A DNA stretch of 64,000 nt, taken from Alteromonas sp. RKMC-009. Its GTDB lineage: Bacteria; Pseudomonadota; Gammaproteobacteria; Enterobacterales; Alteromonadaceae. Where the stretch lies: positions 3,720,001 through 3,784,000 of the forward strand of contig NZ_CP031010.1 in assembly GCF_003584565.2 (NCBI RefSeq), read 5' to 3'. The position numbers were made by a program, and so were the translations under genes. The notes under the pieces were generated by a model, which searched no databases, had not been told where the DNA came from, and saw only the letters and a program-made list of their open reading frames with translations. Positions 20,576-43,323 of the stretch are shown in pieces. Every line of letters starts with the position of its first letter. The first letter of the stretch is position 1.

Positions 20576-20586
20576 AGGTCGCGATT

Positions 20587-25281: not shown

Positions 25282-26109
25282 TCAGAATGCATAGTCCGGC
25301 AGAGGAATATCAATCATGCCTTTGCGGTACTGTTCTGTTGTTTCTTCACTGAGTTCATCACGGTTCGACTCTGCATAGCGGCGCAGCTTTCTGATTTCGC
25401 TGTGCTCTTCCACTTCCCGCAATGCATCGCGGTAGCGCGCCATTCCGCTGCGGCCGATAGCATTGGTCAGCCAGGCAAAAGTATCCGCCTGATTTTTCTG
25501 AGCTGTGGCATAGTTTCTCAGTAATATCTCCGCGGCTAAATCACACAGGGCCTCGCTGCGAAGTTCCTTTGATGACATTTCCTGTGCCGCCCGTTTCAGA
25601 CTGGCAAGGTCGCCGGCCAGCATCATCTCTTTAAGACGACTGACTACATCTGCGTCGGCTTCTTTGCTGTAAAGATCTTCCGGTAACGTGTACATGCCAG
25701 CCACAAACTGCTCTCCCTCTGCACCCGGCAACTCGTCGAGAGCGGTGTCAGCATGGCGTTCCAGCTTATCTATCTGTGTGTTTTCCACCACTTCAGACAA
25801 CACGCCGTAGTAGCGGCCATTTTCAGATGCACCAATGGCACGTGCCAGCCACGCCAGGGAGTCCACATCACTGCGCACCGCATGGGGATATTTCTTCAGC
25901 AGAATAGCCGCAGCAATATCCAGTAATTCAGGATCAGCCATTTTAGTACTGAATATACGTTTTGACGCCGTTTTTAACTGAACCATATCGCCGGAAAGCA
26001 TCATGTCCGCCAGCTTCTGTTCCTCAGGGCCTAATTCCGCCATTGCACTGAAAGACAAGGCGCTCACCGATAATCCGATTGCCATCACGGCTGTTGTTAT
26101 ATATCTCAT
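25282..26109 (-). CDS. Unrecognised exported protein made of two copies of one helical domain
   Basis: A 275-residue protein with a Sec signal peptide (about 1-24, ending AMA) and no family I recognise. Two repeats of about 113 residues, offset by 126, fill the mature part: residues 31-143 and 157-269. Shared positions include MMLxGD, LKxA, DxAAxILLxxY, DxxAWLxxAIGxS, RYxxxLxEVxE, KLxRxA and DEL. The pattern predicts amphipathic helices, perhaps HEAT- or TPR-like. It is the last gene of the lower polyene operon, 37 bases after the FabG-like reductase and before the terminator, so a periplasmic role linked to that pathway is inferred. I chose ATG 26109 because GGAG is well spaced from it; ATG 26112 is adjacent. 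Confidence 0.8.
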   Translation of the reverse strand: MRYITTAVMAIGLSVSALSFSAMAELGPEEQKLADMMLSGDMVQLKTASKRIFSTKMADPELLDIAAAILLKKYPHAVRSDVDSLAWLARAIGASENGRYYGVLSEVVENTQIDKLERHADTALDELPGAEGEQFVAGMYTLPEDLYSKEADADVVSRLKEMMLAGDLASLKRAAQEMSSKELRSEALCDLAAEILLRNYATAQKNQADTFAWLTNAIGRSGMARYRDALREVEEHSEIRKLRRYAESNRDELSEETTEQYRKGMIDIPLPDYAF

Positions 26110-26146
26110 CATTACTCCATTTCGTTGAGATGACTTCACTTCAAAA

Positions 26147-26878
26147 TCAGTACATACCGCCATTGACGCTGATCACCTGGCGGGAAATATAGCGGGCTTC
26201 ATCTGACATCAGAAAGCCGATGGTATTGGCCACATCATCCACATGACCGAAGGTGCCCAGGGGAATCATTTTCTTCGCTTCGTCTGCCACCGCCCCTTCA
26301 ATCATACCGGTTTCAATGACGCCCGGTGCAACACAGTTTACTGTGATCTTTCTTTTACCCAGCTCAATAGCCAGCGCTTTAGTGGCACCGATAATGCCGG
26401 CTTTAGACGCGCTGTAATTCGTTTGCCCGCGGTTGCCCATCAGGCCGGAAACCGAGGACAGTGTGACAATACGTCCGCCCTGACGCAACCTGATCATAGG
26501 CATGATTACCGGATGCAGCACATTGTAGAAACCATCCAGATTGGTGTGTACCACGCCATCCCACTCTTCGCCGGTCATGGCAGGAAAGGCAGTATCGCGG
26601 GTAACACCGGCATTGCAGACCACACCGTAATAAGCGCCGTTTTGTTCAATATCGGCTTCAATAGCGGTACGTGTGCCGTCTCTGTCGGCAATATCAAATT
26701 GCAGGGCCACGGCACTGCCGCCGCCGGCAATAATATCCTCAACCACTTTGGCAGCAGCGTCTTTACCGCTGCGGTAATGTACCGCTACGGCAAACCCCTG
26801 CGCAGCCATTTTGTAGGCAGTGGCTTTTCCGATACCGCTGCTTGCTCCTGTGACGAGGATTCTTTTTTGTTCAGACAT
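26147..26878 (-). CDS. FabG-like 3-ketoacyl-ACP reductase of the aryl polyene cluster (ApeQ type)
   Basis: A 243-residue short-chain dehydrogenase. It has the NADP-binding TGASSGIGKA, the NAG motif (VCNAGVTRD), catalytic Ser in TLSSVSG, YSASK and NCVAPG, all FabG-like. In aryl polyene synthesis such a reductase reduces the 3-keto group after each elongation. The start at 26878 lies eight bases inside the end of the exporter gene with AGGAT upstream, showing coupling. A second role in general fatty acid synthesis is possible but the operon position argues for the polyene. Confidence 0.9.
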   Translation of the reverse strand: MSEQKRILVTGASSGIGKATAYKMAAQGFAVAVHYRSGKDAAAKVVEDIIAGGGSAVALQFDIADRDGTRTAIEADIEQNGAYYGVVCNAGVTRDTAFPAMTGEEWDGVVHTNLDGFYNVLHPVIMPMIRLRQGGRIVTLSSVSGLMGNRGQTNYSASKAGIIGATKALAIELGKRKITVNCVAPGVIETGMIEGAVADEAKKMIPLGTFGHVDDVANTIGFLMSDEARYISRQVISVNGGMY

Positions 26879-29216
26879 GAGATCCTTTTTCCTTCTTGTC
26901 AGGCTCACCGTTAAACAGGCTTATTGCCGCAATAAAATTAATCGTATTTCCAATCAGAATAATGCTGCCGAAAGCCTGAACCACAGGCATATCGCTGAAT
27001 GCCAGCAAGCCGAAAGACAGCAGGCTGGTTACTGCAGACAGCAAAATTGCTTGTTGGGTAGTGTCCGGTTTGTCCGCCATTTCACGGGCAAAGATGATGT
27101 AATCCATGCCAAGTCCCAGCACCAGAAACAGTGCCATGACATGAAACACATTGAGAGCCTGACCGCACAGAAGCACCAGCGCCACGGCAATCAGGCTGGC
27201 TGATGCAGGAATGAGCAGAAGACGGATGACCCCGGCGCTGCGGTACCAGAGCGCCAGCAGCAGTCCGACCAGACCGTAGGCAATGACCAGCAGAATGGCA
27301 CCGGTTTCCCGCTGGGACTTCAGTGCCAGAGTGGCATTGCCCAGGGTATTCACATAGTCAATTTCAGGAATGGCAGCCGCCGCTTTTTCTATGGCAGCTA
27401 AATCGCTGTTTTTACGGATAAGCGCAAAACTGATTATTTCATTGTTGTCAGCGGCCCCGCTTCCTGCCGACCAGAGCGGCGGTAGGCCATCAACTCGTTC
27501 AGACAAACCGGTAAAATCCAGTACCTTGCCGGCACCGTCAACGTAAGCCGCTTTTACCGGTGCAACAGACTCTGCCGGTAGACCCAGCGCGCGGGCAAAT
27601 ACATCAAGCACACCGCCATCACTGTAAAGTTTTGCCTGCAATGCATAATCCGCCTTTTGCGCTTCAGGTGAAGGCAACCAGTCAGCGATGCTGCTCACTG
27701 AATCGCGGGGCACACTTTCTGAGCTCAGCAAACGGTCCAGTGCATCAAAAATCTGTTGTGGCTGTTGCCCGCGGATAAGCAGATAACGACCGGGCTCGTA
27801 TACCTGGGTCAGCGCCGATACAGCCTGCTCCTGCTCAAGTAAGGCAGGAGAAACATGGAAAAAGCGTCTGGGATCGTCATTCACCTGTAATCCGCCGGCG
27901 TACAGGTACAAGGCACTCATCACCGCCATAGCGAGTCCGGCAATAGCCAGAGCGCGGGGACGTCGGGCGGTCACATGTTGACAGGAACGGATCACAGCTT
28001 TCAGCAACGGCTGTCTGGCTTCGATGGGACGGCGAACTACTAACGGCCCCAGCAGCATGACGCTCAGCCAGGCCATGGCCAGCCCGGCACAGGAAAACAG
28101 AGCAATTTTTTTCAGAATGGTAAGTTCAGCCAGGCTCAGGGCACCATAACCCACCAGCGATGTAATCACACTCAGCACCATGGCGCGGTACAACACGGTA
28201 TCATGACCGCCGGCACGGGCTTTCTCATTTGCTGGCTGCGCCGGAGACTGTGCTGCTGATAAGAAGTGATAGAAATAGTGCAGTGAATAATCCACCACAA
28301 TACCAATCAGACTGGCACCGAAAACAATGGTCAGCACATGCACAGAACCGTATACCCATACGCTGGCGAGAATACCGGCCCCAACACCGGCGGCAATGGA
28401 ACCAAGGGCCAGGCTTAAGGGTAATAACGAACGGAAAACCAGCAACATCAGCACCAGTACGCCGGCTATTGAGCCTGCAGCAATAAGCTGAATATCCGCT
28501 TTGGCTGACTGCGCTGAATCCACAGCAAAAAAGAACATCCCGGAATGCAGCACGGACACATCAAACTCTTCACTGACGGCCTGCTCTGCGGCTTTGATTT
28601 GTTCGTAAACAGCATACTGCTGTGCCATACCGGCGGGAAAATCAGTGAAACTCACGCTGAATGACGTAACGGCTGCGGTGCGCTTTTCAACCACCACGGA
28701 CGGATCGAGACGTGCCGACATCCCGATAAGGTAATCTGAAAACCAGCCGAGGGGATCCTGTTCAAAGGGAACCAGTCTGACGCCCTCTCCCAACTGATAA
28801 AGCTTTCGCTGCGCCGCTGCGGCCAGTTGTTCAGGAGTTTTGTCGGTGAGGGCTTCCCGTTGAGAAGCACTGAGGAAATTAAACCTGAAGGGCGTAATAG
28901 CAGGCAAATATGCGGTCTGCATTTCATTATCAAGGGCAACGTGCAGGCCAGGCACGACATTCAGGGCCGTTTGCAATGAACGGGCAGCTTGTTCAGTGCG
29001 CTTATCGTCGTCGCTCTGCACAACCACCATAAAACGCTGGCTGATGTCATCAGTTAACGCGTCCAGCGCATGTTGCAGGGCGGGGTCGCGTACTTTATCC
29101 GGATTTAAGTCGTTGAGATTCGTATCAATCTGCACTGCCTGCGGATTGATAACAACAAACAGCACGCCGGCCAGTAGGATAGCGATGAAGCACAGCCGGA
29201 GAAAAAACGACATCAT
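26871..29216 (-). CDS. MMPL/RND-type exporter of the aryl polyene cluster
   Basis: A 781-residue inner-membrane protein with about twelve helices in two repeated halves, each a helix, a large periplasmic loop and five helices, as in MMPL lipid exporters. FGASLIGIVVDYSLHYFYH and VLGLGMDYIIFAREM carry the paired Asp-Tyr residues of the proton path in each half. Aryl polyene clusters carry one such exporter, thought to move the polyene lipid outward together with a LolA-like protein, which is the gene just upstream. ATG codons at 29216 and 29213 are both possible starts. Confidence 0.9.
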   Translation of the reverse strand: MMSFFLRLCFIAILLAGVLFVVINPQAVQIDTNLNDLNPDKVRDPALQHALDALTDDISQRFMVVVQSDDDKRTEQAARSLQTALNVVPGLHVALDNEMQTAYLPAITPFRFNFLSASQREALTDKTPEQLAAAAQRKLYQLGEGVRLVPFEQDPLGWFSDYLIGMSARLDPSVVVEKRTAAVTSFSVSFTDFPAGMAQQYAVYEQIKAAEQAVSEEFDVSVLHSGMFFFAVDSAQSAKADIQLIAAGSIAGVLVLMLLVFRSLLPLSLALGSIAAGVGAGILASVWVYGSVHVLTIVFGASLIGIVVDYSLHYFYHFLSAAQSPAQPANEKARAGGHDTVLYRAMVLSVITSLVGYGALSLAELTILKKIALFSCAGLAMAWLSVMLLGPLVVRRPIEARQPLLKAVIRSCQHVTARRPRALAIAGLAMAVMSALYLYAGGLQVNDDPRRFFHVSPALLEQEQAVSALTQVYEPGRYLLIRGQQPQQIFDALDRLLSSESVPRDSVSSIADWLPSPEAQKADYALQAKLYSDGGVLDVFARALGLPAESVAPVKAAYVDGAGKVLDFTGLSERVDGLPPLWSAGSGAADNNEIISFALIRKNSDLAAIEKAAAAIPEIDYVNTLGNATLALKSQRETGAILLVIAYGLVGLLLALWYRSAGVIRLLLIPASASLIAVALVLLCGQALNVFHVMALFLVLGLGMDYIIFAREMADKPDTTQQAILLSAVTSLLSFGLLAFSDMPVVQAFGSIILIGNTINFIAAISLFNGEPDKKEKGSHV

Positions 29217-29222
29217 CGTTGA

Positions 29223-29945
29223 TCAGAATGCGTCGAAGCGGGCGGGTGAAAGCAGAACGCGACACCAGTTTGTTTTACCGGAATACAGTGTTTCGCATTG
29301 TTCCCAGGCTTTCCGCTTGCCCTCGAAACTGTATTCCTCAATCTGATCAATAAGCACCTGCGTATTCTGCCCGGTTGCGTCTGTGACTTTAATCGTTACG
29401 GCAGGTTGCGGGGCATCTCCGTCTCCGGTCGCGGATTTGGCGATACGGATAGCTTCCAGTCCTTTTCTCATCATTTCGATTTCAGGGATGAGTAACAATG
29501 TGTCGTCCGGTTCCTGAGTGACCGCGAATTCGTCAGTAAAATAGCTGGTGTCGCCTTTCAGCAAACGAACGAAAATGTTGGACATAATATAACGGGCAAC
29601 GCCGCTGAGAGGCGTTAATGTGCCATCGTCTTCAGCCCGAAAATTGTTGGTGCTGTTCACATACAATATGGCTTCACTGAAGGGCTCGCTGGTATGCCAT
29701 ACCAGTCCTAAATCGCAGGAATAATAAAAATCACCGGCAGATTTAAGCGGTACAGGCAGGCCCTGCATTGATTTTTGCTGGCTGAAGTGACCGGAAAAGT
29801 GACAGCCGGAAGGAAACATGGAAGAGAGTAACTGCTCTTCGGTGGCCTTGTCTTCAACTTCCCGGGAAGGATCTGCATCTGCCATAGCCGGCCACACTGC
29901 CAACAGTCCTGTCAGCAAACTAATGAGCGCGGGGCGGCGGCTCAT
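29223..29945 (-). CDS. LolA-like periplasmic carrier protein of the aryl polyene cluster
   Basis: A 240-residue protein with a Sec signal peptide (about 1-23) and a LolA-like half-barrel (FSGHFSQQKSMQG, SAGDFYYSCDLGLVWHTSEPF, with later TLLLIPE). LolA proteins carry lipid-modified cargo across the periplasm; in aryl polyene loci a LolA-like protein accompanies the MMPL exporter and probably carries the polyene lipid. Its ATG overlaps the thioesterase stop by four bases. Several Cys residues (Cys48, Cys77 and two near the end) may form disulfides. Confidence 0.82.
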   Translation of the reverse strand: MSRRPALISLLTGLLAVWPAMADADPSREVEDKATEEQLLSSMFPSGCHFSGHFSQQKSMQGLPVPLKSAGDFYYSCDLGLVWHTSEPFSEAILYVNSTNNFRAEDDGTLTPLSGVARYIMSNIFVRLLKGDTSYFTDEFAVTQEPDDTLLLIPEIEMMRKGLEAIRIAKSATGDGDAPQPAVTIKVTDATGQNTQVLIDQIEEYSFEGKRKAWEQCETLYSGKTNWCRVLLSPARFDAF

Positions 29946-30358
29946 GATTTATTTATCCATGTAGTGACGGCGTCAGTAAGAAATGCCGGAGACTCGTACT
30001 GGGTGATCTGCTCAGGCATGGCCACCGCAAACTGGGTTGTCTTGCCTTTAGTGAACACCTCTCCGGTATCACGATCTTTAATGGCATAGCTGATTTTCAG
30101 GCGGTTTTCCCATTCAGTCAGCCAGGATTCCACCACGACTTTTTGCTCAAACAGCAGAGGCTTGATGTACTTCACCTGAATATCAACGATGGGGAAAAAG
30201 AACCCCTGCTCTTCCATCACACTGTACGGGCAGCCTATTTCAGACAACAACGCACAGCGGGCCATTTCCATGTATTTAGGATAGTTACCATGCCAAACTA
30301 CGCGGTACGCATCCACATCGAAAAAAGGAATGTCGATATTCAGGCGATTTTTTTTCAT
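29942..30358 (-). CDS. Hotdog thioesterase (4HBT family) of the aryl polyene cluster
   Basis: A 138-residue single-hotdog acyl-thioesterase. The catalytic Asp is in FFDVDAYRVVWHGNYPKYME, the classic 4-hydroxybenzoyl-CoA thioesterase/YbgC pattern. It could release the polyene or edit stalled chains on the carrier proteins. The start at 30358 (MKKNRLNIDIP) follows the acyl carrier protein stop by four bases; the frame stays open 13 codons upstream inside that gene. Confidence 0.87.
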   Translation of the reverse strand: MKKNRLNIDIPFFDVDAYRVVWHGNYPKYMEMARCALLSEIGCPYSVMEEQGFFFPIVDIQVKYIKPLLFEQKVVVESWLTEWENRLKISYAIKDRDTGEVFTKGKTTQFAVAMPEQITQYESPAFLTDAVTTWINKS

Positions 30359-30362
30359 CGGT

Positions 30363-30617
30363 TTACGCTTTCGCCGGCAACTCAGCCAGTACGTCAACGA
30401 CGTCCTGTATGGTTCTCACCTGCTTGAACTGAGACGGAGAGATTTCTACGTTAATGGTCTTTTTCAGGTCAACCAGTAAATCTACGGCATCAATGCTGTC
30501 GATATCCAGGTCTTCATAAAGACGGGCTTCAGGCACGATTTCCGCCGGTTCCAGCTCGAAAAGGTCTACTAAGGTGTCTCTGACCTGTGCCAGGATATTT
30601 TCTTTTTCCGCATTCAT
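30363..30617 (-). CDS. Acyl carrier protein (second carrier of the cluster)
   Basis: An 84-residue acidic carrier protein; Ser41 in DIDSIDAVDL is the phosphopantetheine site. It overlaps the acyltransferase gene by four bases. Aryl polyene clusters characteristically hold two carriers; this one, the ApeF-like position, is beside the thioesterase and acyltransferase, so it may serve starter loading or transfer rather than elongation. That split of labour is inference. Confidence 0.92.
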   Translation of the reverse strand: MNAEKENILAQVRDTLVDLFELEPAEIVPEARLYEDLDIDSIDAVDLLVDLKKTINVEISPSQFKQVRTIQDVVDVLAELPAKA

Positions 30618-31435
30618 AACGCATTCCCTCTTTGATTTTCCAGCTGTTCCGGCGTGGCCGTTGTCTCTGTAGACAGCTGTTTGTTGTAATAGTTTTCCAG
30701 AAACTGAGTCAGATGTCTGTACTGCTTAGGTCGCGGTAACGAAGTGTCTATGCAGTCATCCAGTGCCAGTAATTCACCTGAACGCAGTGTAAATGCCGGG
30801 CCGCCTTCCGGGATATCATACCATTTATCGCCCTTTTTCAGCGCCCGGGGGTAGCACTCTATCATCACAGGCATGATGGAGGCATTAACGGCCACCGCCA
30901 TATTGGCAGCTCCCCTTTTAAAGCGCAAAACGTTATCTTCTTTGGTCCGCGTGCCTTCAGGAAAAATCAGAATATTCTCCCCGGCTTCCAGTTTGGCCGC
31001 CGCCATAGGTAATACCTGCTCAGCATTGTTTGGTATAAACCCGGCCTGGCGCACCACCGCACCGGTAAAAAAGTTATCCCAAATGGCGCTTTTCACGAAA
31101 CAACACATCTGCTTATTCACGGCAAGCAGCAGCACCACATCAATCAGTGACGGATGATTCGCTATAACAATGTGCCCCGGGCGGGCTTTGTGCATAGAGT
31201 CCACATCGAACGAATACCGGATAAGGCCGAAAAATCGCATGATACGAATAAATGTCAGACACCCTTTATGAATACACCAACGGATCATGCGTTGCTTTTT
31301 AGCCGGCGAAATAATGGTGACAGGACTCATCAGCCGGAAGAAAACACCGACCAGCAACGCCCCTGCACCAAACAGCGAATAACTCACACCGGCGCTGAGG
31401 ATTTGCCAGCTTTTGCGCAGTTTAGCTAACAGCAT
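30614..31435 (-). CDS. PlsC-like lysophospholipid acyltransferase of the aryl polyene cluster
   Basis: A 273-residue membrane-associated acyltransferase with an N-terminal hydrophobic segment and the PlsC motifs: NHPSLID (HX4D) and FPEGTRT. It probably transfers the polyene or a fatty acyl chain onto a glycerol-like or sugar acceptor, the step thought to make aryl polyene lipids. I chose ATG 31435 (MLLAKLRKSW), with GGAGCG upstream; the frame continues open through the end of the chorismatase gene, but a start there would mean a long overlap. Confidence 0.87.
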   Translation of the reverse strand: MLLAKLRKSWQILSAGVSYSLFGAGALLVGVFFRLMSPVTIISPAKKQRMIRWCIHKGCLTFIRIMRFFGLIRYSFDVDSMHKARPGHIVIANHPSLIDVVLLLAVNKQMCCFVKSAIWDNFFTGAVVRQAGFIPNNAEQVLPMAAAKLEAGENILIFPEGTRTKEDNVLRFKRGAANMAVAVNASIMPVMIECYPRALKKGDKWYDIPEGGPAFTLRSGELLALDDCIDTSLPRPKQYRHLTQFLENYYNKQLSTETTATPEQLENQRGNAL

Positions 31436-31487: not shown

Positions 31488-32426
31488 TCAGGCACAGAAA
31501 CATTCGATTTCAACCAGCAAGTCTTTACGACAGATATCGGCCAGGGTGTACACCGCTTCAACGTCAGGGTAATGGCTGCTCAGCCAGTCTCGGATATAGG
31601 CGACATCCTTTTCGTGACGGACATAGACTTTAAAGGCTGACAACGGGCACTGCTCCGGATTCGCTGTATCAAGCAAATGGCGGATATTTCCCATGGTCAC
31701 AGTGAGCTGCTTTTCAATATCTCCCTCTCCCAGGGTCTGATGGCCTGTAATGCTGGCCGTTCCTGAGATAAACAAAAAGTGAGAGTCATTCAGTGTCAAT
31801 GCTGTAGCACGGGCAAATGAGGGACTGGAAATACCATACTGGCGGGGGTATTCGTAGGCGTTTACCTGATGGTGATTATTGTAGTGCCGCGGCTTAATCC
31901 GGCTGGCGAAAACATAAAATACAGCTCCATCGTTATGATGTCCCAACGCTGATGCAGCGGGGAAAGCCTGAGGGGAAATACCGGCTTCTTCAAATGCTTT
32001 CAGACGACCGGTACAAAACTTTTTATACACCTCATGGTCGCCGTCACCGGCATTTATCGCCGGCAGATAATTCCAGAAGCGGAACGGATGCGCGAATCCT
32101 TTCTCATCCAGCACCCCCAGAATTGCCCCGTAGGCGGTTTTCGTGTGTTGCTCAATATCGCCGCATTCATCTTTTGTCAGCCAGTGTGCAACGCAAATTA
32201 CATCGTCCGTTTCAGACCAGTAACAACGTCCGGTCTGGCCACGGGTCACTTTGCCCTTTACCGTCCACACTTCATTGACTGCTTCAGAGCCCGCTTCTTC
32301 AAGCCCTGTTGCAATCAGGCCATTCCCGAAAGGTTCACACTGGTTGATAAGAGGCATTACCGCAAGAACATCCTCACGGGATTGCAGAGCTTTGGCGGGG
32401 GTGGAACAAAAATGCTGTTTTAACAT
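31488..32426 (-). CDS. Chorismatase of the FkbO/Hyg5/XanB2 family
   Basis: A 312-residue protein with the chorismatase signatures: FRFWNYLPAIN, YKKFCTGRLKAF, AASALG, VNAYEYPRQYG, SPSFARA, LFISGTASITGHQT and a C-terminal VEIE. The family cleaves chorismate to pyruvate plus 3-hydroxybenzoate, 4-hydroxybenzoate or a dihydrodiol; the Xanthomonas member XanB2 makes 3- and 4-hydroxybenzoate, the former feeding xanthomonadin pigments. Here it heads the lower polyene operon, facing the AMP-ligase gene, so it most likely makes the aryl starter. Which of the three product types applies cannot be decided by eye. No tyrosine ammonia-lyase, the alternative starter enzyme, is present. Confidence 0.87.
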   Translation of the reverse strand: MLKQHFCSTPAKALQSREDVLAVMPLINQCEPFGNGLIATGLEEAGSEAVNEVWTVKGKVTRGQTGRCYWSETDDVICVAHWLTKDECGDIEQHTKTAYGAILGVLDEKGFAHPFRFWNYLPAINAGDGDHEVYKKFCTGRLKAFEEAGISPQAFPAASALGHHNDGAVFYVFASRIKPRHYNNHHQVNAYEYPRQYGISSPSFARATALTLNDSHFLFISGTASITGHQTLGEGDIEKQLTVTMGNIRHLLDTANPEQCPLSAFKVYVRHEKDVAYIRDWLSSHYPDVEAVYTLADICRKDLLVEIECFCA

Positions 32427-34059: not shown

Positions 34060-34080
34060 TCAAAGTACCGGCAGCTAAAT

Positions 34081-34120
34081 AAAAAAAGGGCGTCCCGAAA
34101 AATTCGTGACGCCCTTTTTG
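34081..34120. terminator. Bidirectional terminator between AMP-ligase and ketosynthase genes
   Basis: GGGCGTC (34088-34094) pairs with GACGCCC (34108-34114), with an inner CGAA/TTCG stem. It is flanked by A7 on the left and T5 on the right, so it serves both convergent transcripts. Confidence 0.92.
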
Positions 34121-34156
34121 TTTGTTTTTCACGGCTCTGCCGGCAATGTTTTGCGT

Positions 34157-35392: not shown

Positions 35393-35407
35393 ACTACATC
35401 CTTTTCT

Positions 35408-35863: not shown

Positions 35864-36864
35864 TACTTCCCTTCCTCTGTGGTAACCGCTGTTAATAACG
35901 TGGTGTCGCCGGGCTGCCAGAAATCATAAAAATTAAACCATTGATACGGTGCGTTCAGGCAATGCTCTTCCAGTTTAGACGCAAACTGTTGCGCATAATG
36001 CTGTAAGTCCTGCTGGCGGGTCTTGCGGTTGATTTGCAATTTGTCACACAAAGGTGCCACATCAAACAACACCTTATTGTCTGACGCTTCACAGCGATAA
36101 GCAAACATCAGCTTAACCGGACACGCCAGCGCTTTTGCAAGCATGTAGGGACCGATGGGCAGTGGCGCATGTTCACCCAGAAACTGAACATCAACGGTGC
36201 GTTCCAGGCCACTCAGGGGAACACGGTCGCCGGCAATGAACACCCACTCGCCGGCATCAATTTTTTCCTTCAGCATCATGATGGTGGTGACATCAAACTC
36301 ATCAACCTGAAAGACATTAAGACGGGATTCGTTATTTTCGTCCTGCATCATTTTAACGAAGTTGCCGGCGTGCTTGTCGTAAACCAATATGTTGATGACC
36401 TTGCTGCGGTAACGGTGCATAAAGCCCCGGCAAAACTCCAGGTTACCGAAATGAGAACCGATTATAAGCTGCCCTCTGTCATCGTTGTGCAGGGCTTCGA
36501 TATTCTCCGGCGAGCTGAGTACAAAGTCTTTTTCTGAGATTTCATCCAGCCAGCCCAGCATCTTATCCAGAATCACTTCAGCAAAGGTTTTGAAATGCAG
36601 CAGCACATGACGGTAACCCGGCTTACTTTGCCAGATCTCAGGCTTAAACCGGTAATGAGCGGTCAGGTATTGCAGCGATGCCTCACGCTGCTCCTTACGA
36701 CACAGCACAAAATACAGCGCCACCGGATACATGATGATTGAAAACACTTTGCGGCCGCACAGCCGGTAAATAAAAAACACCAGTCGCATGGCTGCCATGG
36801 TGCCGGCTTCACGGGTTTGCGACCAGTGCGCCTGCTGTTCTGAAGTTTTATCTGACGTAGTCAT
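35863..36864 (-). CDS. LpxL/HtrB-like acyltransferase of the aryl polyene cluster
   Basis: A 333-residue membrane-bound acyltransferase of the lipid A biosynthesis acyltransferase superfamily, with the catalytic HX4E in GSHFGNLE and a hydrophobic N-terminal region (about 15-40). In aryl polyene loci such enzymes are proposed to attach the polyene to a glycolipid-like head. It follows the glycosyltransferase by ten bases with AGAGGAAG before the chosen ATG at 36864; the upstream in-frame start at 36894 would overlap that gene. Confidence 0.86.
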   Translation of the reverse strand: MTTSDKTSEQQAHWSQTREAGTMAAMRLVFFIYRLCGRKVFSIIMYPVALYFVLCRKEQREASLQYLTAHYRFKPEIWQSKPGYRHVLLHFKTFAEVILDKMLGWLDEISEKDFVLSSPENIEALHNDDRGQLIIGSHFGNLEFCRGFMHRYRSKVINILVYDKHAGNFVKMMQDENNESRLNVFQVDEFDVTTIMMLKEKIDAGEWVFIAGDRVPLSGLERTVDVQFLGEHAPLPIGPYMLAKALACPVKLMFAYRCEASDNKVLFDVAPLCDKLQINRKTRQQDLQHYAQQFASKLEEHCLNAPYQWFNFYDFWQPGDTTLLTAVTTEEGK

Positions 36865-36874
36865 CGCTTCCTCT

Positions 36875-37621
36875 TTACTTACCCAACAAGGCACGAACGC
36901 GGGTGACTACCAGTTTTGGCAAGCGAATAAGCATGCCAAACATCAACCGTACATGCAGCCGGATCAGCATGAGGTTATCTTTCAGATAATGAAAATGGGA
37001 TACGGTGTTTTCGTGATAAATCACCTTAGTAGGAATGAAGTGCAAATCGATGCCTGCCCATACCGCTTTCACCAGCAATTCCGGGTCGAAATCCATGCGT
37101 GGGCCAAGGTAGTAATTATCGAAAACCCGCTCAATTTGTTTGATGGGATACACCCTGAAGCCGCACAGGCCGTCTTTAATTTGCAAAGACAGTGTTTCCA
37201 GCGCTACCCAGAAATCGGTAATTTTACGGCCGTATTTTCTGGCGAATGGCGCGGTTTTATCAAAATAAGGCTGACCGGAAATAAAGGAATCAGGGTGTGA
37301 GCGACTGTAATCCAGCAGTTTTTGCGCGTCATCGATGTTGTGCTGGCCATCGGCATCCAGTTGCAACACGTGGCTAAAGCCCAGGGCACTGGCGTGATAG
37401 CAGCCGGTGATCACCGAAGCCCCTTTACCACGGTTCGTCTGGTGTCTGACAAGATGAAAATCCGGGTAAGGTTTAAGTAGTGCTTCCACCTTCGCCACGC
37501 TTTCTTCACCACTGCCATCATCTACCACAATGCAGGGTAAATTCAGTGATGCCAGCGCCGGCAGAAACTTTTCAAACAGCACTTCGTGTTTGTAATGAGG
37601 AACAATAATGCAATATTTCAT
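36875..37621 (-). CDS. Family 2 glycosyltransferase of the aryl polyene cluster
   Basis: A 248-residue GT-A glycosyltransferase with VVDDGSG (about 32-38), LDADGQH for metal and sugar nucleotide and a C-terminal amphipathic, basic stretch (RLPKLVVTRVR) that could lie on the membrane. It may build the sugar or lipid head to which the polyene is attached. It overlaps the hotdog dehydratase gene by four bases (ATGA). Confidence 0.87.
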   Translation of the reverse strand: MKYCIIVPHYKHEVLFEKFLPALASLNLPCIVVDDGSGEESVAKVEALLKPYPDFHLVRHQTNRGKGASVITGCYHASALGFSHVLQLDADGQHNIDDAQKLLDYSRSHPDSFISGQPYFDKTAPFARKYGRKITDFWVALETLSLQIKDGLCGFRVYPIKQIERVFDNYYLGPRMDFDPELLVKAVWAGIDLHFIPTKVIYHENTVSHFHYLKDNLMLIRLHVRLMFGMLIRLPKLVVTRVRALLGK

Positions 37622-38001
37622 GATGCGGAAAACTTAAAACTGCCCGTGGAGAATGAGTCCGTTTCGTTGGAGAAGTGAAACGACACACTGCCTTTAGCTG
37701 CATTGTGATTGAGCGTGAGCTGCATCTTTGCACCCGGCATGACCATGGTTTTGAATTTGATGTTGGTGAGTTGATGAAAACGGCTATCGCTGACAAACAA
37801 CGCTTTTGCCAGCTTTCCCGCCCAGTCTATCTGCACCACACCGGGCAGCACTTTATGATCAGGAAAGTGACCGTCGAACCAGGCAAGATCTTCGCTTACC
37901 TTAAGCGTAATCTCAGCAGACGCTTCACCCATATTTACGGCCGTAATATCCGGCCCTTCCTGCGCGTTAAACAGTGCTTTCAACGCATGTATATCAGTCA
38001 T
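37618..38001 (-). CDS. Hotdog dehydratase (ApeI type)
   Basis: A 127-residue FabA/FabZ-like hotdog protein with FDGHFPDHKVLPGVVQIDW; His45 is the catalytic histidine and Asp59 lies at the second acidic position. It is the probable partner of the 35408 dehydratase. The chosen ATG at 38001 overlaps the upstream membrane-protein gene by eight bases, and the upstream frame extension has no support. Confidence 0.83.
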   Translation of the reverse strand: MTDIHALKALFNAQEGPDITAVNMGEASAEITLKVSEDLAWFDGHFPDHKVLPGVVQIDWAGKLAKALFVSDSRFHQLTNIKFKTMVMPGAKMQLTLNHNAAKGSVSFHFSNETDSFSTGSFKFSAS

Positions 38002-38587
38002 CAACAATCTTATGCTTCTTTTTGTAGTGGCGCCGGAAAAGTAATTCAGCAACCACAAATACGGCAAAAATCAGGTAGGACAGTAAACCGTTGTAGAGTG
38101 TCCATACTGCTAAACTGCTAAACCAGGCTGTCCAGGCGGCCACCGCTGCATTGAGCAACAACAACAGCCCCCACGCCAGGCTCAGCGCCCTGAGATATCC
38201 TTTCGCCTGTGCCGGCGGATTGTGCCCACCAGCCCGGGCGAAGCGCTCTATCAGGGTGTGCTCATCAAGCAACGAAATCAGGAACAGCAGTCCCATTCCG
38301 GCGCTCATGATCACAGGGTAACATTTCAGCAGTATTTCACTGTTCAGAAATATAACCCCGGCGCAATATAACGCAATCACGGCAGTCATCAACCAGTCAC
38401 TGGTTTTACGACTCCTTCCTGCAACCACCAGCCTGAAGATGGACACTAACAGTAACACCGCACCGAACCAGCGGGGGTCTATCGTGTCGATGTTAAGCCA
38501 CACCACAAAGGGGTAAGCCACAGACACGAGTACAAAGAGCAGCGGAATTAAGTCCTTCGGGCCTCGCTGCCGCGGTGATGCACTCAC
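37994..38587 (-). CDS. COG4648-type integral membrane protein of the aryl polyene cluster
   Basis: A 197-residue protein of about six hydrophobic helices and a basic C-terminal tail (RRHYKKKHK). It belongs to a predicted membrane protein family seen almost only in aryl polyene clusters; function is unknown. It starts with GTG at 38587, overlapping the flavoprotein stop by four bases (GTGA). A scaffold or transport role at the inner membrane is conceivable. Confidence 0.8.
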   Translation of the reverse strand: MSASPRQRGPKDLIPLLFVLVSVAYPFVVWLNIDTIDPRWFGAVLLLVSIFRLVVAGRSRKTSDWLMTAVIALYCAGVIFLNSEILLKCYPVIMSAGMGLLFLISLLDEHTLIERFARAGGHNPPAQAKGYLRALSLAWGLLLLLNAAVAAWTAWFSSLAVWTLYNGLLSYLIFAVFVVAELLFRRHYKKKHKIVDD

Positions 38588-40158
38588 GCCAGCACGCTTT
38601 GCCTGTAATTGCCCAGCACCGCCCGTTCTTCATCATCAATCTGCGTGGTCGCTTCGTCGCTCAGCATATCTTCAAAGTACGGGACAATTTTCTGCATAAT
38701 GGCAATGTTCTTCTCCAGTGCCATTTCCACATCAATATCCGGGTTTTTCAATACGTCGTTGAGCTCGCCCAGACAAGGCACCAGGAATTGATCCATAAAG
38801 CTGCCTTTGGCGGGTAAAACCAAACGCTTCTGTGCTCTTTCAGCCAGCAACATCTGCATTTTCTTATTCAGCTTCTGGGTTTTCAGCAGGTTCGGGGTAA
38901 TTTTACGCATGGTGTCTAAGTCGCCGATAGCGTCGGTGAAAAACAGCAAGGCAAACACACCCCAGTAATAGGTGTAATCCCAGACCAGCTTTATCGACAT
39001 CATCTTACGATCGCCAAAACCGCCATACTGATCTTTGTAAATTGATAGAGTGTTCTCAAAGAACGAGTCGTAAAACTTGTGGAACAAGGCCGCTTCAAAA
39101 CGAATGTCCTGCCCTTTCCTGTCACGCTCGATAAGATGGGTAACAAAGGTGTTATTCAGTGCGATGAAATCGCTGCCCGGTGAATAGAAAGGGTCAGCAA
39201 AGGCGCCGGCTTCACCTGTCATGGCCCAGCCAGAGTCTGAGAACATTTGCTTGCAGCCGTAGGAATAGCCTTGCATGACTTTAAAGTCGAGCAGTTCCGC
39301 CCCTTCAATGGCCTCTGCGCACAGTGGATGTTCTTGTTGTAACCATGCCATGGTGTCTTCAAAGGTGCTGATTTTGCTGTCGGCCAGCGCTTTATCGTCC
39401 ATGACGATACCAAAGCTGGTGGCGCCGGATGCAAGGGGAATAATCCACACCCAGTAACCCGGGCCCATCAGATGATTGGTGCTTAACCAGCGTTTGCCCG
39501 GTTCGAGGACACGATTTTGCCAGGCTTCATTATCAGACCATTCATCGATAATGACTCGCTTATTGATGCGGAAGAAAACCGCGTTGCCCTGATGGCCGGT
39601 TTCAGTCTGCAAGTTCAGCTTATTTCGTAGTAACGCCTGACGGCCCGCTGCGTCGACTAACCAACGCCCCTGAACGGTAATCGTGTCGTCACCGCGACGG
39701 CAAACCACAGTGTGATTTTTATCGCCCAGTTCAATGTCTTCTGGCACTGCGCCATCAAGAAATACCACGCCTTTTTCTTTCAGCATGGTGTAGAGGTAGT
39801 TTTCCAGCGTGCCACGTTCAATTTGATAAGCCGGAATACCGAAAAGCTCGCTTACGCCCAGTTCATCATAATCGCTGTAGTCGTTTTGCACTTTTCCGAA
39901 GAACAGCCTGAGGCCGTACTTACGCAGATGCTTTTCCTTGAAATGGTCTTTCAAGCCAAGTACATCGGTAAAGTAGTGCGCACCAATTTCAACCGTAGAC
40001 TCCCCCACTTTTGCCGTGGTGTCGTGTACCGGAAAGGTGTTCTTCTCAATAATAGTTATGGCGTAAGTGTCGTCGCGGTTAAGCAGTTGCAGCGCCAGGC
40101 TCATGCCTGCCAGCCCGCCACCGGCGATGATAATGTCCGTATTCGTCTGATCCATCAT
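38584..40158 (-). CDS. Flavin-dependent halogenase-like oxidoreductase
   Basis: A 524-residue FAD protein of the tryptophan-halogenase fold. It has the FAD motif GGGLAG (13-18), KVGEST, and WVWIIP at 236-241, which fits the halogenase signature WxWxIP. A lysine falls at residue 80 (79 from the second Met), the place of the catalytic Lys79 of PrnA and RebH, in RKYGLRLFF. Xanthomonadins are brominated and flexirubins can be chlorinated, and their clusters carry such proteins, so a role in halogenating the aryl head is plausible. Some family members with this motif are monooxygenases, so activity is unproven. It lies directly between the chain-length-factor-like gene and the membrane-protein gene. 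Confidence 0.82.
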   Translation of the reverse strand: MMDQTNTDIIIAGGGLAGMSLALQLLNRDDTYAITIIEKNTFPVHDTTAKVGESTVEIGAHYFTDVLGLKDHFKEKHLRKYGLRLFFGKVQNDYSDYDELGVSELFGIPAYQIERGTLENYLYTMLKEKGVVFLDGAVPEDIELGDKNHTVVCRRGDDTITVQGRWLVDAAGRQALLRNKLNLQTETGHQGNAVFFRINKRVIIDEWSDNEAWQNRVLEPGKRWLSTNHLMGPGYWVWIIPLASGATSFGIVMDDKALADSKISTFEDTMAWLQQEHPLCAEAIEGAELLDFKVMQGYSYGCKQMFSDSGWAMTGEAGAFADPFYSPGSDFIALNNTFVTHLIERDRKGQDIRFEAALFHKFYDSFFENTLSIYKDQYGGFGDRKMMSIKLVWDYTYYWGVFALLFFTDAIGDLDTMRKITPNLLKTQKLNKKMQMLLAERAQKRLVLPAKGSFMDQFLVPCLGELNDVLKNPDIDVEMALEKNIAIMQKIVPYFEDMLSDEATTQIDDEERAVLGNYRQSVLA

Positions 40159-40968
40159 TTACCTTTCACAAGCTAAAGTGAGACTGGTTCCACTGCTTAG
40201 CGGAATGGTGATCTGCCCGTCAGGTTGATTCAACAGCTCAGCAACACACAATACCTTTGCCGCCGGGTTCTGAGCGTACATCTCTGTGAGATACGTACTG
40301 CCGGCATTGAGTGCCGGCCAGCTTGCATCTTCCTGCTGATTTACCATTGCTGTAAGCACTTTGCCTTCCACGTCGGCATCGTGTGGATAAATCACCAGTG
40401 AAAACGCAAAGGTTTCCTGATTAGGCAACACAGGCGTCAGAATATCTGCCACCGGCGCGTCATAAAACGTGAGCAGCATGGGCACGTTTTCAGTTTCGCA
40501 CTGAATCATGGCCTCAAGAATGGTTAGCGACACCGACTTTTCATATCCGGCAACAGAATTGGCCGCGCTCATGGTGCCCGTACTGATAGTCCAGTAGCCG
40601 GCCGGCGCGTTGTGTACCGAGTTATGGAACTTGGTCGGAGACAGTTCTTTATGTTCAGACGCCAATGTTTTGCACATATAGTCGGTCAGGTCGGTATCGC
40701 CCAGGCCAGAGACAAACACGCAGGTAAGCGTATTGGGCTCAACACCGGCATCTTGCGTCGCCTGCCATGAACTCTCAACCGCCAACTTAACCGGCAACGG
40801 GGCACGGCGTCTTTCATTGGCGGGAATAATACCGGGTTTCGGGCTTTTCAGCTTTGCTTCGGGCAAGTCTGCGCCACCGAGCAGCGCTTGAAGTGCAGAC
40901 CAGTTTTCAAAGTAGCTGCCCCAGGCACCGGTGCCTGCAATTTTACATTTCAGTGCTTTTGTCTGCAT
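40159..40968 (-). CDS. Chain-length-factor-like ketosynthase N-terminal-domain protein (ApeC type)
   Basis: A 269-residue protein resembling the N-terminal half of ketosynthases (NSVHNAPAGYW, SVSLTILEAM) but without the active-site cysteine or the C-terminal histidines. In aryl polyene synthases such a protein (ApeC) pairs with an active ketosynthase as a chain-length factor. It follows the 40970 ketosynthase by one base, supporting that partnership. The start at 40968 has GAG seven bases ahead. Confidence 0.85.
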   Translation of the reverse strand: MQTKALKCKIAGTGAWGSYFENWSALQALLGGADLPEAKLKSPKPGIIPANERRRAPLPVKLAVESSWQATQDAGVEPNTLTCVFVSGLGDTDLTDYMCKTLASEHKELSPTKFHNSVHNAPAGYWTISTGTMSAANSVAGYEKSVSLTILEAMIQCETENVPMLLTFYDAPVADILTPVLPNQETFAFSLVIYPHDADVEGKVLTAMVNQQEDASWPALNAGSTYLTEMYAQNPAAKVLCVAELLNQPDGQITIPLSSGTSLTLACER

Positions 40969-40969
40969 A

Positions 40970-42148
40970 TTACTCTGCCCTGCTAAACAAAAGTGTACAG
41001 TTATTACCACCGAAGCCGAATGAATTGGTCATCACGTGCTGACACACTTTCTCTTCGTCTGTGGCTTTAATGGATAAATCCAGTGCCTCATCCAGCGTTT
41101 CCAGGTTCTTCGAACCCGGGATCACGTTGGTGTGCAAGGTGTCCATGGCAATAATGGCTTCGGTAATACCGGCTGCGCCCAGGGTATGTCCCATCCAGGC
41201 TTTGGTCGATGAACAACGTACAGACGCAGGGAACAATTCGGAAATCAGCTTTCCTTCAATTAAATCGTTAGCCCGGCTGGATGTGCCGTGAAGGTTAATG
41301 TAGTCCACCGACTCAGGAGACAATGCCGCCCGTTTCAGCGCCTGTGTCATCGACAATCTGGCGCCTAATCCATCAGGATGCGGGTGCGACATATGGTGTG
41401 CATCTGAGCTTTCGCCATAACCGGCCAGCGTAATGCCCCGGCCGTTGTCATTTTCACCCGCGCGCTGGAGTACGGCAAAACCGGATGCTTCACCCAGGTT
41501 AATCCCATCGCGGTGCTGATCGAAAGGCTTGCACGGGTTCGGCGACAGTAGCTGCAGCGAATTAAAACCGTGCAGCACACTCAGACACAGCGTATCCACG
41601 CCGCCTACCAGCACCGCATCAACAATACCGGTTTCCAGCCAGCGGGCGCCGGTGGCAAACACTTTGGCGGAAGAAGAGCACGCGGTGTTAATCGTGAGTG
41701 AAGGGCCTTTGATGCCGGAAAGGTGAGCAGCAAACAAGGCAGGTGCATGAGGATTATGCACAAACGGCTGCCTGAAAGCTTCGGTTAACTCATTGTCGCT
41801 GTTGAGTTTGGTATAGGCTTCTTCAGTACGGTCGATACTGGATGTACTCGATCCCATAACTAAACCAATGCGGGCAGCGCCGTATTTGCTGATTAACGCT
41901 GAAACCGTATGGCGAATCGTGCCCTGTTCATAACCTAATGCAGCCAGGGCATTGTTCCGGCTTTGCCATTGACCCAGGTCGTCCACCCCGTTGATTTGCT
42001 CAACAATGCCAATCCAGGTGTCCAGATCTGAACCTGGCAGGTTGTTCTTAATCAGGCCGCTTTTGTGCTGTTTGAGCGAAGTCCGTAAGGCGCTGAGATT
42101 AACCCCGGCCGCCGAACAGGATTCGTAATCGATGATATCTATTTTCAT
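40970..42148 (-). CDS. Beta-ketoacyl-ACP synthase, partner of the chain-length-factor-like protein (ApeO type)
   Basis: A 392-residue ketosynthase with the full triad: Cys157 in NTACSSSAK, His287 in NLHGTSSR and His321 in WMGHTLGAAG. Its closeness to the ApeC-like gene suggests it is the ketosynthase that builds the polyene by repeated malonyl condensation. It is the second gene of the upper operon after the carrier protein. I chose ATG 42148 over an in-frame TTG seven codons earlier. Confidence 0.9.
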   Translation of the reverse strand: MKIDIIDYESCSAAGVNLSALRTSLKQHKSGLIKNNLPGSDLDTWIGIVEQINGVDDLGQWQSRNNALAALGYEQGTIRHTVSALISKYGAARIGLVMGSSTSSIDRTEEAYTKLNSDNELTEAFRQPFVHNPHAPALFAAHLSGIKGPSLTINTACSSSAKVFATGARWLETGIVDAVLVGGVDTLCLSVLHGFNSLQLLSPNPCKPFDQHRDGINLGEASGFAVLQRAGENDNGRGITLAGYGESSDAHHMSHPHPDGLGARLSMTQALKRAALSPESVDYINLHGTSSRANDLIEGKLISELFPASVRCSSTKAWMGHTLGAAGITEAIIAMDTLHTNVIPGSKNLETLDEALDLSIKATDEEKVCQHVMTNSFGFGGNNCTLLFSRAE

Positions 42149-42210
42149 GTCGTCAAAGATAACCCTCAAATAGCTTTATTTACCGCCGATCCGAGGGTAA
42201 CCGCCCGATT

Positions 42211-42474
42211 TTATTTATTCTTTTCAACAAATGCGGTTAAGCTGCGTAAGGTCTCGAACGCTTCGCGTGTACCTTCGTCTTCAGCTTTAATTTGCACGCC
42301 GTATTCTTTTGATATCGCTAATGAAATTTCCAGCGCATCAATAGAATCGAGTCCCAGACCGTCACCGAATAATTGATCTTCCGGATCAATTTCTTCCGCT
42401 TCCATGTCTTCAAGGTTGAGTGCTTCAACCAAAAGCTGAGCCATTTTTAATTCGGATTCTGTTTGTGTAGCCAT
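42211..42474 (-). CDS. Acyl carrier protein (first carrier of the cluster)
   Basis: An 87-residue acidic carrier protein; Ser44 in LGLDSIDALEIS is the phosphopantetheine site. It heads the upper polyene operon, 62 bases before the ketosynthase, and faces the phosphopantetheinyl transferase gene that probably activates it. AAGGACAG precedes the ATG. This ApeE-like position is usual for the carrier used in chain elongation. Confidence 0.93.
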   Translation of the reverse strand: MATQTESELKMAQLLVEALNLEDMEAEEIDPEDQLFGDGLGLDSIDALEISLAISKEYGVQIKAEDEGTREAFETLRSLTAFVEKNK

Positions 42475-42519
42475 AGTTGATACTGTCCTTACTATGTACG
42501 CTTCTCTCTGAAAGGGCGC

Positions 42520-42531
42520 TAGTTTAAACTA
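42520..42531. promoter_or_regulatory. Second copy of the polyene-cluster palindrome
   Basis: TAGTTTAAACTA, identical to 32599-32610, centred between the carrier protein (minus) and the phosphopantetheinyl transferase (plus). Read on minus it continues TAGTTTAAACTAGCG, the same 15 bases as the first copy on plus. Confidence 0.6.
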
Positions 42532-42564
42532 ATGTTACAATAAAAACTATTTCTGCAAACCGGC

Positions 42565-43323
42565 ATGTTTTCCGATTTTACCCCTTCAAAACCGGCAAAA
42601 TTCATCAGTGATCAGGAGGTACACCTCTGGCTCGTTGATGTTGCTGATACACATGAAAAAAATGTCATGTCTCAATTGCAGTCGTATTTGTCTGAAGATG
42701 AAAAGCTGCGCATGGCAGGTTTTCGCAAGCAGGAAAGCCAGCACCGCTTTCTGGCAGCACGCGGTGCGCTCAGGCTCATTCTGGCCGGATTACAGAAAGC
42801 CGGCGATCCGGCTGACATGCGGTTCAGTGTCAACGGCCACGGCAAACCATTTCTCACAACAAACCCGGAAGATCTGCACTTTAATCTTTCCCATTCCGGT
42901 GACTTGATCTTAATTGCTATTACCCGTGGACGTGAGTGCGGTGTCGACATTGAACGGAGGAACAGCGCCCGCAATTTTAATGAACTGGCGGATTTTTACT
43001 TTCACCCGTGTGAACGTGATGTAATCTCAGCGGCAAAGGGCGATGCAGACATCATGTATCGCTTCTATACACTCTGGTCTTTAAAGGAAGCTTTCATCAA
43101 AGCGGAGGGTAAAGGTATGGCCATTGCCGGAGACAGCTTTTACTTTTCCGGTATTGATTCTTTGCAGCCTGAGGTAGTGACAACTGCGGGTTCTCAGACC
43201 AGCGGCCGGCACTGGCTATTCAGTTGTGAGTTTTACAGGCAGGATTACAGCATGGCCCTTGCCGTTGAAAAAATAAATGAAAGGGATATCACGGTTAAAC
43301 GGCAACGCCTGGTCTTCGATTGA
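42565..43323 (+). CDS. Sfp-type 4'-phosphopantetheinyl transferase
   Basis: A 252-residue pseudo-dimeric transferase that adds phosphopantetheine from CoA to carrier-protein serines. Metal ligands Asp128 and Glu130 (GVDIE) and the WSLKEAFIKAEGKG motif (Lys174, Glu175) are present, as is NLSHSGD near 107-113. Its divergent position beside the first carrier protein and the shared palindrome mark it as the cluster's own activating enzyme. The ribosome site is weak. Confidence 0.9.
   Translation: MFSDFTPSKPAKFISDQEVHLWLVDVADTHEKNVMSQLQSYLSEDEKLRMAGFRKQESQHRFLAARGALRLILAGLQKAGDPADMRFSVNGHGKPFLTTNPEDLHFNLSHSGDLILIAITRGRECGVDIERRNSARNFNELADFYFHPCERDVISAAKGDADIMYRFYTLWSLKEAFIKAEGKGMAIAGDSFYFSGIDSLQPEVVTTAGSQTSGRHWLFSCEFYRQDYSMALAVEKINERDITVKRQRLVFD

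Follow-up and report, generated by a model that had tools for sequence, protein, structure and literature searches.

The DNA analysed here, a 64,000-nucleotide stretch of the Alteromonas sp. RKMC-009 genome (referred to as the window), carries a mostly leftward aryl polyene (APE) gene cluster at positions 25282–43323, recognized in family profile scans of its open reading frames (ORFs) and predicted to make a yellow, membrane-bound pigment. Our data suggest that this cluster probably encodes a chimeric aryl polyene line, with a 3-hydroxybenzoate loading module set on a canonical APE chassis. The chorismatase and AMP-ligase appear to be of xanthomonadin type by descent and the ApeR-like ketosynthase and FabG-type ketoreductase of canonical APE type, and score comparisons place several tailoring genes with the canonical type by similarity. 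An automatic 'aryl polyene' call exists for this strain (PMC6588371), a label that says nothing about the head group. That a loader of xanthomonadin type is found in nature on a canonical ApeR chassis hints at the components that have to move as a unit, and the starter choice of such pigments becomes directly testable.

In the pathway suggested by this gene content, the chorismatase would convert chorismate to 3-hydroxybenzoate (judging from its family, residues and context), and the divergent AMP-ligase, given its xanthomonadin-type ancestry, would load the product onto the first acyl carrier protein (ACP1). ApeR and the ApeO/ApeC pair would extend this starter with malonyl units from ACP2, and reduction by FabG2 with dehydration by ApeI and ApeP would yield a conjugated polyene. 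By analogy with ape work in E. coli, Xenorhabdus, and Acinetobacter, the thioesterase, acyltransferases, and glycosyltransferase would serve release and attachment to a membrane lipid, and the MMPL and LolA-like proteins would export the pigment lipid to the outer membrane. More speculatively, a halogenase-like enzyme could add a halogen to the meta-hydroxyaryl head. For the roles given to ApeR, ApeO/ApeC, the carrier proteins, and the exporter we follow PMC8253772 and PMC8358021. The genes are:

31488–32426, minus: FkbO/Hyg5/XanB2-family chorismatase, predicted 3-hydroxybenzoate synthase (PF21168, TIGR04444; A160, G222, C299, E306)
32692–34059, plus: xanthomonadin-type AMP-ligase, transcribed divergently from the chorismatase gene; predicted 3-hydroxybenzoate:ACP ligase
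42211–42474, minus: ACP1, predicted starter-loading carrier protein (PRK09184)
40970–42169, minus: ApeO-like ketosynthase (PRK09185; active-site NTACSSS)
40159–41010, minus: ApeC-like chain-length factor, a half ketosynthase (Q170)
34157–35392, minus: ApeR-like ketosynthase (PRK09116; Y140 and F207, mapped by hand)
26147–26908, minus: FabG2/ApeQ-type ketoreductase (family profiles)
35408–35863, minus: ApeP dehydratase (family profiles)
37618–38001, minus: ApeI dehydratase (full ORF from 38067; presumed start 38001)
30363–30617, minus: ACP2, predicted elongation carrier protein (PRK05350)
29942–30397, minus: 4HBT thioesterase, ApeK-like (family profiles)
30614–31435, minus: PlsC-like acyltransferase (full ORF from 31561; presumed start 31435)
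35863–36894, minus: LpxL-like acyltransferase (family profiles)
36875–37621, minus: family 2 glycosyltransferase, GT2 (family profiles)
26871–29216, minus: MMPL/RND exporter, ApeM-like (family profiles)
29223–29945, minus: LolA-like periplasmic carrier (weak match, 21.5 bits against a Pfam cut-off of 23.6)
37994–38587, minus: membrane protein (VC0807-family match below cut-off)
38584–40158, minus: flavin-dependent halogenase-like enzyme (WVWIIP and FADPFYSPG)
25282–26163, minus: predicted all-helical, probably secreted two-repeat protein (no Pfam or NCBIfam family)
42565–43323, plus: Sfp/HetI-like phosphopantetheinyl transferase
43399–44352, plus: MaoC-like hydratase/dehydratase in the flank, cluster membership uncertain

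The canonical APE set is complete (ApeR, ApeO/ApeC, ApeP, ApeI, ApeQ, two ACPs, ligase, thioesterase, MMPL, and the below-cut-off LolA), and family scans of the cluster proteins gave no match to DUF3261/ApeN or to a methyltransferase. A previous reading made from the sequence alone had proposed an aryl polyene cluster primed from chorismate by a FkbO/Hyg5/XanB2-type enzyme; every component it named is present, and its list omitted the halogenase-like protein, the membrane protein at 37994–38587, and the family-less protein at 25282–26163.

Ancestry of the loading genes and the chassis

We compared each gene among loci of the window's type, loci of the lyase type, and loci of a xanthomonadin type using median score ratios (score divided by the smaller self-score), given below in the order window–xanthomonadin type / window–lyase type / lyase–xanthomonadin type. 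The best ORF above a gene-specific length was used for each locus and shorter ORFs were dropped. The xanthomonadin-type group comprised all other chorismatase loci of a scan of named genomes (best 80 of 548; see below) except Streptomyces, plus seven added loci; some of these show only the chorismatase within the stretch compared, including two Thioalkalivibrio loci of the ApeR comparison.

The ligase is nearer the xanthomonadin type (0.28 / 0.11 / 0.12) and lies off the E. coli ApeH branch in both score ratios and tree. A rooted tree (41 of 60 rows with three outgroups, quick search) joins window and xanthomonadin types with support of 97, and a second tree of 33 of the 60 rows, made without the quick search, places it inside the xanthomonadin type next to locus L031 (98/97). 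In the chorismatase tree (71 of 120 rows, quick search, with at least three row pairs each representing one genome entered twice), the window type forms one clade (99), followed by G608 (92) and L031 (87); L031 is thus a near neighbor of the window type in both trees. The L031 FabG, which was outside the FabG tree sample, shares only 44% identity with that of the window, and ApeR was not detected in the 20 kb of that locus. Chorismatase and ligase are kept together in opposite orientation across genera.

The chassis genes point the other way. FabG ratios were 0.39 / 0.62 / 0.38, and a rooted tree (36 of 72 selected rows with three outgroups, quick search) joins the window type to the canonical group (99), with grouping with the xanthomonadin type rejected by the approximately unbiased (AU) test (p 0.0143). 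ApeR ratios were 0.22 / 0.57 / 0.22 (three xanthomonadin-type rows), and in 13 of 14 genomes whose chorismatase loci are of other than the window's type, no match to the ApeR-like ketosynthase exceeded 39% identity. Within Alteromonadaceae, ApeR is 78–100% identical among chorismatase-type loci versus 54–60% between these and the copies of lyase-type clusters, so the split between the two types is not a recent allele swap. The PDB relatives of the ApeR-like ketosynthase are 7f27, which we take to be an ApeR-type ketosynthase structure, and 4ewg. The latter is described as an ApeR homolog in PMC8358021, where Tyr135 and Phe202 are reported to act in aryl stacking; the window's protein retains this pair as Y140 and F207 (mapped by hand via the PDB alignment). 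An E. coli apeR deletion is reported to have retained the main APE lipid peak (PMC8253772).

Several further genes, tailoring genes among them, also score nearer the lyase type: GT2 (0.31 / 0.43 / 0.32), LpxL (0.19 / 0.28 / 0.20), PlsC (0.16 / 0.26 / 0.18), and, with three xanthomonadin-type rows each, ApeI (0.18 / 0.25 / 0.18) and the membrane protein (0.10 / 0.22 / 0.13). The trees for GT2, LpxL, PlsC, and ApeC were quick and unrooted, which makes root placement from them impossible. For ApeP and ACP2, no xanthomonadin-type row passed the filters, in a search that was seeded by window copies and could miss some. Ratios for MMPL, LolA, and thioesterase were uninformative, the last two having one xanthomonadin-type row each.

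Three other genes lean toward the xanthomonadin type in similarity: ACP1 (0.51 / 0.42 / 0.38), ApeO (0.40 / 0.31 / 0.32), and ApeC (0.21 / 0.12 / 0.12). Since the rooted ApeO tree decides for neither type, we do not claim the ketosynthase/chain-length factor (KS/CLF) pair as part of the transferred block. PDB relatives are 6qsp and 7f28 chain B for the ApeO-like protein and 7f28 chain A (E 1.4e-4) for the ApeC-like protein; we take the first two to be ApeO-type and the third ApeC-type. Gln170 of the ApeC-like protein occurs in 13 of 13 window-type rows, 13 of 22 xanthomonadin-type rows, and both rows from clusters with neither starter gene; of 18 lyase-type rows, 16 carry Lys or Arg there. A Q166A mutation in Lysobacter abolished pigment, and this Gln is said there to be common to all homologs (PMC3691225). 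We tentatively equate Gln170 with Lysobacter Gln166, matched by position without Lysobacter in the alignment; the equation is tentative because the paper's homologs all share the Gln, which lyase-type rows would not. Holo-ACP1 is reported to bind ApeO–ApeC much more tightly than holo-ACP2 (PMC8358021), which makes joint travel of loader, ACP1, and KS/CLF plausible.

Several observations weigh against a chimeric origin. The AU test fell just short of rejecting either ligase alternative, with p 0.059 for joining the window type to the canonical group and p 0.058 for a single xanthomonadin-type clade, and the 41-row ligase tree contains long outgroup branches that meet. The rooted ApeO tree (36 of 58 rows with four outgroups, quick search) gives the union of window and xanthomonadin types a support of only 65, and likelihood is higher when the window type is placed with the canonical group instead (p 0.77). 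The FabG tree does not recover the window type as a single clade, L030 falling with E. coli, and some genes have few xanthomonadin-type rows (three each for ApeI and the membrane protein, one each for thioesterase and LolA). The exchange could also have run differently, from a window type that is the older form, and Ala160 of the chorismatase may allow a mixed 3-/4-hydroxybenzoate product.

These ApeO and ligase results are also what speaks for a vertical history without any exchange, in which both the chorismatase and a loader of xanthomonadin type were already present in the ancestral APE cluster, were then lost or replaced on the E. coli/lyase branch, and were kept by the window's cluster as an intermediate. 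We regard this history as unlikely: the ligase sits inside the xanthomonadin-type set beside L031, to which the chorismatase is also close, and L031 combines these genes with a distant FabG and no ApeR detected in its 20 kb.

Starter genes and related clusters

Of 118 genomes in the family, 27 yielded an ApeR-like ketosynthase at a threshold of E 1e-100; with G224, found via its chorismatase, these make 28 genomes with an APE locus (one, G313, only 81% complete). Starter genes were mutually exclusive among them: five genomes (G000, G224, G301, G306, and G344) carry the chorismatase without a linked lyase, 21 a linked lyase without chorismatase, two neither, and none both. A member of the window's own genus, G121, has a lyase-type locus. 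In line with the sequence-only reading, no tyrosine ammonia-lyase is linked to the window's cluster, the genome's only PF00221 match lying ~0.55 Mb away. The two clusters with neither ammonia-lyase nor chorismatase (L123 in G391 and L133 in G333) belong to one genus, and UbiC may supply their starter, the source also predicted in E. coli.

Those two clusters, together with a ubiC gene elsewhere in the window's genome, lend some plausibility to a canonical APE line that, like that of E. coli, takes 4-hydroxybenzoate from UbiC as its starter, with the chorismatase product second, minor, or a signal. Retention of the oppositely oriented chorismatase/ligase pair across genera argues against this, as does the position of the ligase off the ApeH branch, and we consider it quite improbable.

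Related chorismatase clusters extend beyond Alteromonadaceae into other, largely marine Gammaproteobacteria. A protein search yielded 6321 relatives among 7999 scored; several Alteromonas records among the matches listed (best 120) already bear the name 'chorismate transformation enzyme, FkbO/Hyg5 family'. In the named-genome scan (best 80 of 548 confirmed relatives), loci L006–L030 share much of the window's gene set within the stretches compared, in two main arrangements, and come from Alteromonas, Aestuariibacter, Saccharophagus, Cocleimonas, and uncultured Gammaproteobacteria, with A. confluentis KCTC 42603, A. halophila KCTC 22164, and A. ponticola MYP5 among the culturable Alteromonas carriers of this cluster; the remaining loci are xanthomonadin/arc-like, other, or too bare for assignment. 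Family profile searches for the chorismatase matched 4 of 295 genomes in the window's order and 73 of 369 in its class, weak partial matches included. The real matches in the order are G000, G224, and G020, the last with a chorismatase adjoining what by eye is a radical-SAM-like ORF. A TIGR04444 match in G272 (21 bits) appears by eye to be a short RidA-like protein and was excluded from the counts.

L008 (Alteromonas indica; 8030–8382, 11774–12049) is a cluster without an ApeR-like ketosynthase or recognizable ACP2, in a locus free of N runs. A Luteibacter metagenome-assembled genome (G392) holds a chorismatase locus (L032) and, on a separate contig, an ApeR-like APE locus (L193) in one bin. 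L198 (G557), possibly a further mixed cluster, combines a chorismatase with thioesterase, LolA, and a FabG that shares 56% identity with that of the window, with no ApeR seen.

Titles and abstract openings among the matches listed, in a search mostly outside the subscription literature, held no description of a chorismatase-bearing APE cluster in Alteromonadaceae; PMC9966250 describes Pseudoalteromonas aryl polyene and resorcinol genes without a chorismatase. A bolder proposal, which we offer as doubtful, is that these loci represent a widespread, largely marine, undescribed APE class, in which a 3-hydroxybenzoate module (chorismatase, ligase, perhaps ACP1 and KS/CLF) was grafted onto the canonical chassis to the exclusion of a lyase starter, yielding meta-hydroxyaryl polyene lipids that would be brominated in sea water by the halogenase of the cluster.

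Among PDB entries, the halogenase-like protein matches flavin halogenases, 8zop being the best (E 5.5e-19), with a further match to the flavoprotein/dehydrogenase 3nix (E 3.8e-18). All three flavin halogenase motifs (GxGxxG, WxWxIP, and F..P..S.G, interpreted following PMC8407142) are present. Since the latter two are kept in all window-type (16 of 16), xanthomonadin-type (24 of 24), and lyase-type (19 of 19) rows, they do not single out the window's cluster. The form KVGES/T occurs in 13 of 16 window-type rows versus 1 of 24 xanthomonadin-type rows (L054), and score ratios (0.08 / 0.09 / 0.18) place the window's protein close to neither type. Its identity as a halogenating enzyme is speculative, the motifs being no proof of activity; arcuflavin is reported to be non-brominated though the arc cluster carries a halogenase gene (PMC3949708).

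Recent recombination within the cluster is likely. Compared with A. confluentis in 600-base steps, a tract of ~33.1–42.5 kb (33100–42512, mid-ligase to ACP1) is 87–98% identical, versus 65–77% in 11 of 14 steps outside it (83–87% in the other three) and 72% in flanking DNA at 44.4–46.4 kb; this jump in identity fits a recombined tract.

Taken as a label for the whole cluster, 'xanthomonadin-like', as the sequence-only reading had it, holds for the chorismatase and ligase, that is, for starter and loading, and fails for the canonical-type FabG and ApeR, for ApeP, for which canonical loci alone yielded relatives, and for several tailoring genes. A plain xanthomonadin cluster, with all genes from one xanthomonadin lineage, would account for the chorismatase and ligase, the similarity of ACP1 and KS/CLF, the Gln170 shared with part of that type, and the halogenase-like gene. 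It is rejected by the FabG test and disfavored by the absence of an ApeR-like ketosynthase from 13 of 14 comparison genomes, and GT2, LpxL, and PlsC score nearer the lyase type, so we give it very little credence.

At the cluster's edges, the protein encoded at 25282–26163 stands beside FabG in Alteromonas-type clusters, and relatives at 28–29% identity occur near two lyase-type APE loci; its AlphaFold2 model, built from 15 sequences, has a mean predicted local distance difference test score of 87. An RND efflux operon (19490–25210; HlyD-type, AcrB-type, and outer-membrane efflux proteins) directly flanks the cluster on this side. On the other side, the MaoC-like gene adjoins the phosphopantetheinyl transferase gene; in A. 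confluentis and Aestuariibacter sp. A3R04, short DNA matches fall at the edge of the cluster.

The chorismatase and its predicted product

Family assignment agrees with the sequence-only reading: the chorismatase matches PF21168 (E 1.4e-32) and TIGR04444 (E 1.4e-61; 208.5 bits, under the curated cut-off of 325 bits, which 0 of 369 genomes in the class exceed), and the only three PDB sequences matched, 5ag3, 5a3k, and 4bps (FkbO), come from the same family, with the alignment spanning residues 46–310. We take 5ag3 and 5a3k to be Hyg5 structures. In the phylogeny that the sequence-only reading had proposed as a check, the enzyme stays in its own family, forming one clade with copies from Alteromonas and other Gammaproteobacteria; this clade and the family assignment support an Alteromonadaceae host and a chorismate-derived starter. 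Median identity to xanthomonadin-type chorismatases is 36%.

The Hyg5-type signature is given as Gly-164, Gly-231, and Cys-318, with catalytic Glu-325 (PMC7170507). Mapped by hand through the PDB alignment, the window's enzyme has Ala160, Gly222, Cys299, and catalytic Glu306 at these sites. The Gly, Cys, and Glu are conserved in all 120 chorismatase rows (27 window-type, the window included, 61 xanthomonadin-type, 30 from the class scan, one Streptomyces, and one other, with a few genomes entered twice), and Ala occupies position 160 in 26 of 27 window-type, 59 of 61 xanthomonadin-type, and 28 of 30 class-scan rows. Because FkbO has Ala/Ala at the second and third sites, these residues mark the enzyme as not FkbO-like, with a first signature residue nearer the xanthomonad-type rows than Hyg5. 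Its predicted product is 3-hydroxybenzoate, possibly with some 4-hydroxybenzoate; enzymes of the XanB2 subfamily (CH-III) form both acids. Such products are reported not to be accurately predictable by alignment alone (PMC3949708). That it instead forms the 3,4-dihydroxy-cyclohexadiene carboxylate of FkbO, giving a pigment that starts from a non-aromatic ring, has membership of the same family in its favor and is scarcely credible given G222 and C299, which match the Hyg5 structures.

A chorismate-derived APE starter is not by itself unusual, since the predicted starter of the E. coli APE is 4-hydroxybenzoate made by UbiC (PMC8253772), and enzymes of XanB2 type act in the xanthomonadin and arcuflavin pathways (PMC3949708). 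Azoarcus ArcB forms 3-hydroxybenzoate, which ArcT activates among other benzoates (PMC3949708), and deletion of the Lysobacter chorismatase gene lowered pigment by ~90%, with restoration by 3-hydroxybenzoate (PMC3691225). Ubiquinone in Xanthomonas depends on XanB2 (PMC3949708). UbiC was found in all nine Alteromonadaceae chorismatase genomes tested, neither of two Xanthomonadaceae, and 16 of 26 genomes in the comparison overall; of the two Xanthomonadaceae, one was assigned to Pseudoxanthomonas through a 99% protein match and the other has the same family code. With UbiC of its own, the window's host need not depend on the chorismatase for ubiquinone, and the chorismatase is therefore probably dedicated to the pigment.

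Comparison with known systems

A related cluster in the gammaproteobacterium G608 (L215, 998–10800) shares with the window ApeR, FabG, ApeP, MMPL, LolA, thioesterase, GT2, ApeI, ACP2, PlsC, and a chorismatase neighboring the window clade. It differs in forming one operon of classical order with the chorismatase last; ApeO/ApeC, ACP1, and the ligase were not found in its 12.9 kb, in a contig that ends ~2 kb past the chorismatase. To Hyg5 and XanB2, the window's chorismatase is alike in family, catalytic Glu, and the Gly and Cys of 3-hydroxybenzoate formers, differing from Hyg5 in the Ala at the first signature Gly.

The xanthomonadin (xan) and arcuflavin (arc) systems, for which 3-hydroxybenzoate is the reported precursor (PMC3949708, PMC3691225), were represented by Pseudoxanthomonas and Aromatoleum as stand-ins for Xanthomonas and Azoarcus BH72. 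They resemble the window's cluster in the chorismatase, an AMP-ligase of the same branch, a loading ACP, a ketosynthase with a half chain-length factor, a glycosyltransferase, and an exporter. They differ in a FabG from another clade, in the lack of UbiC in the two Xanthomonadaceae tested (the window's host has it), and in the ApeR-like ketosynthase, present in the window and missing from 13 of 14 comparison genomes, a pattern seen here rather than a published definition.

Canonical APE clusters (ape of E. coli CFT073 and the lyase type of Alteromonadaceae) differ at the starter, which UbiC is predicted to supply in E. coli and the linked ammonia-lyase presumably supplies in the lyase type, and in having a ligase on another branch and no chorismatase. 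Their likeness to the window's cluster lies in the chassis: ApeR, ApeO/ApeC, ApeP, ApeI, an ApeQ-type FabG, and two ACPs, together with the thioesterase, LolA, MMPL, and acyltransferases.

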